Source of the DNA: Prevotella melaninogenica
Lineage (GTDB): Bacteria > Bacteroidota > Bacteroidia > Bacteroidales > Bacteroidaceae
DNA length: 64,000 nt
Direction: 5' to 3'
Assembly (NCBI RefSeq): GCF_018127965.1
Contig: NZ_CP072349.1
Coordinates: 1,678,001-1,742,000, forward strand
Both the position numbers and the translations under genes were made by a program. Under the pieces are notes generated by a model, which was not told the origin of the DNA, searched no databases, and saw only the letters and a program-made list of their open reading frames with translations. Shown piece after piece: positions 3,273-4,651 of the stretch; position 1 is the first letter of the stretch; every line of letters starts with the position of its first letter.

Positions 3273-3326
3273 TGCTTTGGTATAGTATTCGTGTTTCTTA
3301 CCTATTATATTAGGAGAGATAACTTC

Positions 3327-4502
3327 TTAATAATTCAATCCAAACATCCAAAGAGGTATGATATTACCTGTACCAATCTCGATATCATCTTTTACTACAT
3401 ATCCCTTCTTAGCTTCAGCGATCTGTTTCTGCCCCTTACTCTTTCCTCCGACTTCAAAGGTTACACCATTAATCTCAAAGTCTGAGATACGAGAAACTAT
3501 AATATCATTATGTACTCTCAACTGATTATAGAAGAAGGTTTCTCTTATATTCCCAATATTAGCTTCACTACCTGCTAAGATATAAGCTAAATTAGGATTA
3601 TCGAGATAAACCTTATCGACCTTACCTAATCCTCTTATGCCACCAGTAGCATCTCGTAATTGACTAATAATCCCAGCCTTTTCCATATACAAGAAGTAAT
3701 CAGGAAGTACATTCCTGCTCACTCCCACCATTGTTGCCAACGAATCCATGACTGGCTTAAAAGGTACGCTACGTGAAATTATAGCAAGCAACTTCTTTAG
3801 CTTACGACTTGTTGAAAGCGTCATATTTGCAAACTGTGGTATATCAACCTCCATCGTAAGATTGACACTTTGGTTTAATAACATTATAAACTCAACGTCA
3901 TCTCCAAATGGATAATACCCATGACGCAAATACTCTTTAAACAAAGGTAGTGGATGTTCCAGTCCTTTGGGGAGTTCTACACGATGTTGAAGAATATCTT
4001 CTAAACTATAAGCTGGAACAACAATGCCCTTAAACATCTCCAGATACTCTCTGAAAGAAAGCCCCTGTAAATGATAAACAGGAGCGCGACGGCTAAGGTC
4101 TGCCTCTCCTTGTATTATATCAAGGACCGACGAACCAGTAAAAGCAACTTTCAAATCAACGTGGGTATCATATATCTGCTTTAGTTCTTGTGCCCAACCT
4201 ATGTACTTGTGAATCTCATCAATAAAGAGATATTCTCCTCCTTCTCTGCAGAATTCATCTGCCAAATCAACAAGTGTATGAGATGAAAAATAGACATAAT
4301 CAGCTGAAACATAAAGCATATTCTGCTCTGACTGATACTCCTTTATATATTGTAGAAACATCGTTGTCTTACCGACACCACGTGGACCAACCAGCCCTAA
4401 CATCTGTCTTCCCCAGTCTAAACGATTATATAGATAACGATGAAAAGTGGTAGAGGTGTACTCTATCCTTTCCCGCATAAATTGTATTAAACTAATATCC
4501 AT
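3327..4502 (-). CDS. AAA_14/DUF4143-type ATPase
   Basis: The protein has 391 residues. Residues 39-47 form a Walker A motif (GPRGVGKTT), about 90-99 a Walker B motif (YLFIDEIHKY), and VAFTGSS a sensor-like strand. A winged-helix-like segment lies near residues 230-275 (containing MVGVSRNVLPDYFLYMEKAG). The C-terminal part has the FEVGGKSKG motif and ends IPLWMFGLNY, as in many Bacteroidetes AAA_14 plus DUF4143 proteins; the DUF4143 part may derive from a PD-(D/E)XK nuclease fold. The exact role of these ATPases is unknown, and defence, mobile-element or toxin-like roles have only been guessed. The gene is alone, with a -7 box 18 nt upstream of its ATG and four phased palindromes directly upstream of that box. 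Confidence 0.85.
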   Translation of the reverse strand: MDISLIQFMRERIEYTSTTFHRYLYNRLDWGRQMLGLVGPRGVGKTTMFLQYIKEYQSEQNMLYVSADYVYFSSHTLVDLADEFCREGGEYLFIDEIHKYIGWAQELKQIYDTHVDLKVAFTGSSVLDIIQGEADLSRRAPVYHLQGLSFREYLEMFKGIVVPAYSLEDILQHRVELPKGLEHPLPLFKEYLRHGYYPFGDDVEFIMLLNQSVNLTMEVDIPQFANMTLSTSRKLKKLLAIISRSVPFKPVMDSLATMVGVSRNVLPDYFLYMEKAGIISQLRDATGGIRGLGKVDKVYLDNPNLAYILAGSEANIGNIRETFFYNQLRVHNDIIVSRISDFEINGVTFEVGGKSKGQKQIAEAKKGYVVKDDIEIGTGNIIPLWMFGLNY

Positions 4503-4519
4503 AGCTCTTCTTTTTGCTA

Positions 4520-4527
4520 CAAAGATA
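4520..4527 (-). promoter_or_regulatory. -7 box of the ATPase gene
   Basis: Read on the minus strand this is TATCTTTG, a full match to TAnnTTTG, with 17 nt between it and the start codon at 4502. The -33 region, about 20 nt further upstream, falls inside the first palindrome at 4535-4552, so a protein bound there would block polymerase. Confidence 0.75.
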
Positions 4528-4534
4528 CGAAAAA

Positions 4535-4651
4535 TGCACTAACCACAGTGCAAAATCAGCAATAAATTGCACTATGCGCAGTGCAATTTGTGTTAAACAA
4601 TGCACTATCTACAGTGCATATCACAACGATTCCTGCACTATCCGTAGTGCA
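4535..4651. promoter_or_regulatory. Four phased palindromic operators, 33-bp period
   Basis: Four 18-bp sites of the form TGCACT-N6-AGTGCA lie at 4535-4552, 4568-4585, 4601-4618 and 4634-4651. The start-to-start distance is exactly 33 bp each time, leaving three 15-bp spacers of unlike sequence. The six central bases differ between sites (AACCAC, ATGCGC, ATCTAC, ATCCGT) while the arms are invariant. Strictly conserved arms with drifting centres argue for selection on a dimeric protein site. Site 1 overlaps the -33 region of the ATPase promoter. The binding protein is unknown; the ATPase itself, which has a winged-helix-like segment, is a candidate. Confidence 0.85.

Follow-up and report, generated by a model that had tools for sequence, protein, structure and literature searches.

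Among described systems, the mechanisms nearest to the one considered here are, as far as the accessible parts of the sources go, the autoregulation of ParA and of AbiEi-type antitoxins and the DNA binding of MalT. ParA of type Ia plasmid partition is a winged helix-turn-helix ATPase, several dimers of which bind repeated inverted motifs in its own promoter, and it autoregulates (PMC8465637); in that account ParA needs ParB and a centromere, and its primary site consists of two hexamers 28 bp apart, with overlapping motifs. MalT, a STAND ATPase, multimerises and then binds DNA boxes cooperatively; as presented there, it has a separate DNA-binding domain and an inducer sensor and acts on target promoters (PMC4381067). 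The AbiEi/Rv2827c antitoxin, too, is a DNA-binding protein on several inverted repeats of its own promoter, in what the accessible text describes as a two-gene toxin-antitoxin operon with no ATPase (PMC7319586). PDC-S01, in which an ATPase is joined to a PD-(D/E)XK-type domain, is ranked fourth in frequency among the defence systems of prokaryotes (PMC12988326) and reported as the individual locus met most often in rumen genomes (PMC13356809). According to the accessible part of the former report, validation is pending for most candidates of the PDC-S01 type, and its description of the system contains nothing on operator arrays (PMC12988326).

The locus described here lies in a 64,000-nucleotide stretch of the Prevotella melaninogenica genome, which is called the window. 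It resembles the ParA system in having an ATPase with a predicted winged helix and repeated inverted motifs at the promoter of its own gene, to which the ATPase is predicted to bind; it differs in its STAND-like fold, in the lack of a partner gene beside it and in its 17-18-bp palindromes repeated every 32-33 bp. Unlike MalT, the window ATPase appears from sequence comparison to read DNA with the winged helix of the STAND-like core itself, not with a separate domain, and its predicted target is its own gene. The archaeal ATPases SSO1545 (2fna) and PABY2304 (2qen) are 14-17% identical to it, and the common fold shows no function; we know of no DNA target for either of them. The PADLOC models of PDC-S01 match the window ATPase (E 1.9e-22, residues 34-347), for which defence is a candidate role. 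A literature search for phased arrays at these genes, with subscription papers and preprints outside its scope, gave no report among the matches listed.

The Array and the ATPase Gene in the Window

Upstream of the ATPase gene the pattern TGCACT-N6-AGTGCA is found four times with 0 mismatches, at spacings of 33, 33 and 33 bp (Table 1). The window array is not a chance occurrence, because in the 3.2-Mb genome the pattern matches exactly at these 4 sites and nowhere else, and a reversed control pattern matches at 0. The preliminary description had reported four palindromes phased at 33 bp upstream of an AAA_14 gene, with invariant arms, variable centres and unlike spacers, and a reading of all four copies confirms this. 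TAnnTTTG is the -7 promoter consensus in Bacteroidetes, and on that basis we take TATCTTTG to be the -7 box of the ATPase gene. The box is 7 bp from palindrome 1, which therefore covers the upstream region of the promoter, as had been claimed. The locus has, at its own promoter, the operator-like repeats that mark autoregulating DNA-binding ATPases.

Table 1. Coordinates of the ATPase locus and its array, numbered from the first nucleotide of the window
Feature	Position	Strand	Remarks
Palindrome 1	4535..4552		TGCACT-AACCAC-AGTGCA; 7 bp off the -7 box
Palindrome 2	4568..4585		TGCACT-ATGCGC-AGTGCA
Palindrome 3	4601..4618		TGCACT-ATCTAC-AGTGCA
Palindrome 4	4634..4651		TGCACT-ATCCGT-AGTGCA
TATCTTTG, presumed -7 promoter box of the TAnnTTTG type	4520..4527	minus	Read from the sequence; Bacteroidetes consensus
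AAA_14 (STAND-like) ATPase gene	3327..4502	minus	391 aa; Walker A GPRGVGKT; Walker B FIDE
Predicted winged helix-turn-helix, codons 229-300	3603..3818	minus	AlphaFold2 model
Predicted recognition helix, codons 263-275, first residue R263	3678..3716	minus	Model and co-variation
Stretch between conserved flanks, unmatched as a block in the sister genome G495 (L359)	3276..4633		Genome comparison

The protein had been labelled AAA_14/DUF4143. The first half of the label stands, with 97.2 bits against a cut-off of 27 for Pfam AAA_14 (PF13173), but the second does not: the DUF4143 model (PF13635) has a cut-off of 28.1 bits, of which the window protein reaches 19; L307, a sibling from a Segatella plasmid, passes with 30.3 bits. 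The AlphaFold2 model of the window ATPase (mean pLDDT 87.5) comprises a STAND-like core, a winged helix and a small C-terminal domain, and its closest structural neighbours are the archaeal ATPases 2qen and 2fna together with CED-4/NLR cores. As in CED-4/NLR proteins, and as is typical of STAND ATPases, the nucleotide-binding, helical and winged-helix domains of the model lie within a single core. A second model, of a clade II homologue (L144; clades are defined below), has a mean pLDDT of 91.7 and agrees with that of the window protein in the position of the recognition helix. A sequence search of the PDB returned weak RuvB-type matches and nothing better, and the NCBIfam models gave no match.

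A more distant paralogue of about 33% identity, without an array, is present in the same genome (L087) and at loci L182-L203, and paralogues of this type occur in most of the genus sample. Many of the copies have a single element resembling TTTTTGC-tatctagag-TTTGCAAA ahead of the promoter box.

Phased Arrays Across the ATPase Family

Public genomes were scanned for homologous loci, of which the best 80 of 565 were taken, and genus, phylum and family samples and fetched regions were added. Phased TGCAC palindromes lie upstream in most of these best 80 of 565 loci and other palindromes in many of the remainder, so the idea that all arrays consist of TGCAC was dropped. Upstream regions were scored for pairs of palindromes that agree both internally and mutually, the period being left free from 20 to 60. 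The filters (a protein of at least 360 aa, at least 180 bp of upstream sequence, and profile coverage) passed 254 loci, reduced to 202 by removal of near-duplicates and to 179 without the 23 loci of clade III; the clade borders, at 300 and 500 bits against alignment A1, are our own choice.

The phased array is a real, selected feature across the ATPase family. The best upstream pair has a period of 32 or 33 bp in 151 of the 179 clade I and II loci (99/116 in clade I and 52/63 in clade II), compared with 6/179 after dinucleotide shuffling. Among the remaining controls, such a pair appeared in 10/127 of the 3'-regions of the same genes and upstream of 0/33 other ORFs in the window and 13/144 in the homologue loci. 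Clade III relatives are essentially without an array (2/23 at 32/33 bp). The 28 of 179 clade I and II loci that fail this strict test include several in which degenerate copies are visible by eye. A first version of the test, applied to 140 loci of all clades, had given 111/140 against 8/140 shuffled and 1/140 inside coding sequence. The preliminary description had made its reading depend on the presence of phased palindromes upstream of homologues in related species, and this is what these counts reveal.

Three classes, with palindrome length, period and spacer of 17/32/15, 18/33/15 and 17/33/16 bp, account for 48, 30 and 22 of the 103 strict pairs. As these classes cover 100/103, the quantity held constant is the spacer of 15-16 bp. 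Of the 151 loci, 113 have arrays of 2 copies, 32 of 3 and 6 of 4. Twelve homologue loci are on plasmids or phages, and a clear 32/33-bp pair is found at five of them (L307, L308, L310, L311 and L316, namely one Segatella, three Cytophagales and one phage record), a marginal one at L315 and none at the other six (L309, L312-L314, L317 and L318), which include both Arcobacter copies (40% identity).

The pattern of change within the array was followed in closely related genomes. Against two close species, the 117-bp window array has 0 and 0 changes in its 48 arm positions, 5 and 6 in the 24 positions of the centres, and 0 and 4 in the 45 of the spacers. Over 8 close pairs, which partly share loci, 1/192 arm, 17/96 centre, 7/119 spacer and 60/1030 flank positions are changed, so that the arms evolve more slowly than the flanks (1/192 versus 60/1030, p 5e-4). 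That constant arms with drifting centres reflect selection on the arms had been proposed from the window alone, and the comparison with the flanks bears this out.

The palindrome centres (4541-4546, 4574-4579, 4607-4612 and 4640-4645 in the window) appear to outpace the flanking DNA in change; for this difference in rate p is 0.01 with one overlapping pair removed.

Co-variation of the Array with the Predicted Recognition Helix

The sequence of the array is private to each ATPase and not shared family-wide. In clade I the half-site starts with TGCAC in 83/108 loci. In clade II there are 37 different half-site hexamers among 58 loci, a number whose true value is somewhat lower, the half-sites having been read in a fixed register from a weak consensus with a few shifted or mis-called (e.g. 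L059 and L181). Paralogues of the same genome mostly differ in their motifs, with a mean similarity of 0.41 (37 pairs) versus 0.44 for clade II pairs overall; two pairs within one genome are alike (L244/L249 and L164/L165).

Co-variation between protein and motif was analysed in the 166 of 179 loci that have a pair score of at least 28 (clade I, 108; clade II, 58). After overall identity was regressed out, identity at column 263 is the top correlate of motif similarity in all 166 loci, and the same column ranks first in each of the two disjoint clades, I alone (108) and II alone (58). R263 is the first residue of the recognition helix in both predicted structures, its clade II equivalent being R270 of L144. 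Taken over all loci, the top 20 columns are weakly concentrated in the helix (p 0.018), and the tests within clades gave no significant enrichment. When 11-residue windows are compared over pairs at 20-50% identity, residues 262-272 are best (r 0.30), with 214-228 close behind; in 200 permutations within clades, a control that does not entirely correct for shared ancestry, r reached 0.288 at most. At 50-70% identity the best predictor is instead residues 222-232, a window that lies before the winged helix and is not the recognition helix.

R263 corresponds with the outer bases of the arms, which are TG in 131/151 loci with R263 and in 0/15 without it (33/45 and 0/13, respectively, in clade II alone). 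On a tree built without residues 225-302 there are 4 changes at position 263 and 13 changes of TG, with 3 branches common to both out of 330 (p 1.9e-4); the fourth R263 change, to N, is in loci whose arms likewise lack TG. The preceding residue behaves in a similar manner, H262 being paired with TGCTG or TGCTA in 2/2 clade I loci versus 0/106 and in 2/3 clade II loci versus 0/55. That the ATPase itself would be the reader of the array is well supported by these comparisons, in which some effect of shared ancestry is left. The autoregulation by the ATPase suggested in the preliminary description fits the co-variation of the array with the ATPase's own predicted winged helix, and every ATPase is likely to recognise an address peculiar to it and to control its own gene.

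Arrays Without an Adjacent ATPase

A strict search for the TGCAC pattern gave hits in 15/247 order genomes and 7/100 genus genomes, the source genome being in both sets. The 22 distinct arrays found comprise 12 before an intact ATPase gene, 2 before a decayed one (L096 and L098), 1 that meets a contig end with the first residues of the ATPase present, and 7 with no ATPase adjoining (L099, L100, L103, L107, L123, L124 and L127). At L099 an ATPase is 1.3 kb away, and at L107 and L123 the second palindrome is incomplete. Two of the seven genomes with such solo arrays (G018 and G229) hold the cognate ATPase with its own TGCAC array, and in the other five no further TGCAC array was found. The association of arrays with ATPase genes, on which the earlier reading relied, is thus upheld by the 12/22 before intact genes but not by the 7/22 that have none adjacent.

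One further solo array occupies the window's own locus in the sister genome G495. Between flanks that are 97% and 92% identical to those of the window, G495 has about 150 bp in place of the stretch given in Table 1, with no trace of the ATPase (L359). At the position of the window array there is a two-copy TGCACT-N6-AGTGCA of period 33 with perfect arms (L359 2599-2649), and a search of the G495 genome at E 1e-85 gave no ATPase of this type. The neighbourhood of pepO in other relatives differs from that in the window, so the locus is not visible as empty there. The candidate rule that arrays occur only at ATPases was dropped in view of the G495 array and the seven solo TGCAC arrays.

Proposed Mechanism and Alternative Explanations

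The distance from the array to the promoter was counted in loci that have a strong pair and a TAnnTTTG within 110 bp. In clade I the box begins 4-8 bp past the pair in 68/96 such loci and in clade II 3-7 bp past it in 17/38. At some other loci the best pair is one period further from the box, and some clade II loci have their array on the downstream side of the -7 box; an array on either side suits a repressor.

We consider it likely that the phased operators of this STAND-type ATPase are bound by the ATPase itself, by way of its winged helix, and that, judging from their position, it represses its own promoter. We infer binding by the ATPase, its stoichiometry, repression and a nucleotide switch as follows. 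Each clade I or II ATPase would recognise its own array, with one dimer on each 17-18-bp palindrome, the two winged helices reading it and the start of the recognition helix (R263) touching the outer bases of the arm. With spacers of 15-16 bp, neighbouring palindromes are centred about three helical turns from each other, so adjacent bound dimers should lie on nearly one face of the DNA and be able to touch. The gap between the promoter-proximal site and the -7 box is usually 4-8 bp, so an occupied site should block RNA polymerase and keep the ATPase gene down, and the ATP/ADP state or some signal may switch the assembly. Autorepression is likely to follow from self-recognition. PDC-S01 is among the commonest candidate defence systems of prokaryotes and, by the validation status in the accessible part of its description, still a candidate; the arrays supply each of its members with a candidate DNA ligand that can be read from sequence. 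The natural pairs of helix and half-site yield a draft recognition code (SRN-TGCAC, HRN-TGCTG and SRPSTLK-TGTAAA), and the family may offer a natural set of mutually insulated, self-regulating switches.

Were the arrays instead the operators of another regulator encoded elsewhere, the intact arms of solo arrays that have no adjacent ATPase would be accounted for. We judge this very unlikely: the exact motif occurs in this genome only at this gene, paralogues of one genome mostly carry different arrays, so that one partner would be needed per ATPase, and the array co-varies with the recognition helix of the ATPase itself. The same co-variation with a DNA-reading helix, together with the helical period, points to duplex DNA and makes it extremely improbable that the palindromes act in the leader RNA, as hairpins or processing signals, although they can form hairpins and some clade II arrays follow the -7 box. 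In the 68/96 clade I and 17/38 clade II loci counted above, the array ends just upstream of the box and is therefore outside the main transcript, and no Rfam family is found at threshold. Near-identical copies in some arrays (e.g. L011 and L018) are what passive repeats from recent tandem duplication would look like, but the arms are conserved while the centres diverge and the same period recurs with unrelated sequences across the family, which leaves that origin with a negligible probability.

A possible, if unlikely, reading is a mobile unit of one gene for which the array mainly serves as address; array and ATPase would insert as a block, the array being an end or landing site recognised by the ATPase (or a helper) and self-repression a by-product. 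Direct repeats of at least 20 nt bracket the unit in 19/127 loci versus 4/179 control ORFs (p 3.8e-5), the 4 control hits including two (L023 and L036) from sequence repeated around an ATPase. At L145 one copy of a perfect 46-bp repeat that contains the promoter directly follows the stop codon and the other stands 12 bp ahead of the array, and at its relative L347 both neighbour genes are found, at the distance expected (770 versus about 776), with one promoter-like copy and no ATPase. At L014, L021 and L022 the direct repeat takes in the array itself. Solo arrays, among them the one at the window's own locus in G495, and the patchy distribution of the ATPase, with up to several copies per genome, would also be accommodated, as would the plasmid copies directly beside recombinase or integrase genes (L308, L310 and L317). 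The window ATPase gene is 97.8% identical to that of Prevotella jejuni (L005) and the adjoining pepO 89.2%; because the gene is nearer to P. jejuni than pepO is, comparison of window 3327-4651 with L005 suggests that the ATPase gene was exchanged between species. Against a mobile unit, the one gene that the unit contains has 16 Pfam matches up to E 10 with no transposase or integrase among them, 108/127 loci, that of the window among them, have no bracketing direct repeat, and the repeats vary in length from 21 to 148 nt. The repeated segment is away from the array junction at L230, L140 and L150, L023 and L032 look from their sequence like dispersed genomic repeats, and an empty site with a flanking repeat was found once only (L347). 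Mobility by itself also does not predict the promoter-proximal position of the array. Distinctly doubtful, in our view, is a new kind of mobile element in which a STAND-like ATPase, from a family with a C-terminal domain connected in the literature with PD-(D/E)XK nucleases, spreads with a private array that is both operator and site of joining or leaving the chromosome, and leaves behind solo arrays and long direct repeats; if it existed, one of the most abundant "defence candidates" would be so common partly through spreading itself.

Two observations concern further copies of parts of the unit. At L014, L021 and L022, 3 of the best 80 of 565 loci, a second array is found 50-150 bp behind the ATPase gene, and that of L021 is part of a stretch of 132 bp which directly repeats the upstream region (89%). 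At L098 and L036, fragments of the 3'-end of the ATPase gene recur in intergenic DNA and resemble relics of further copies.
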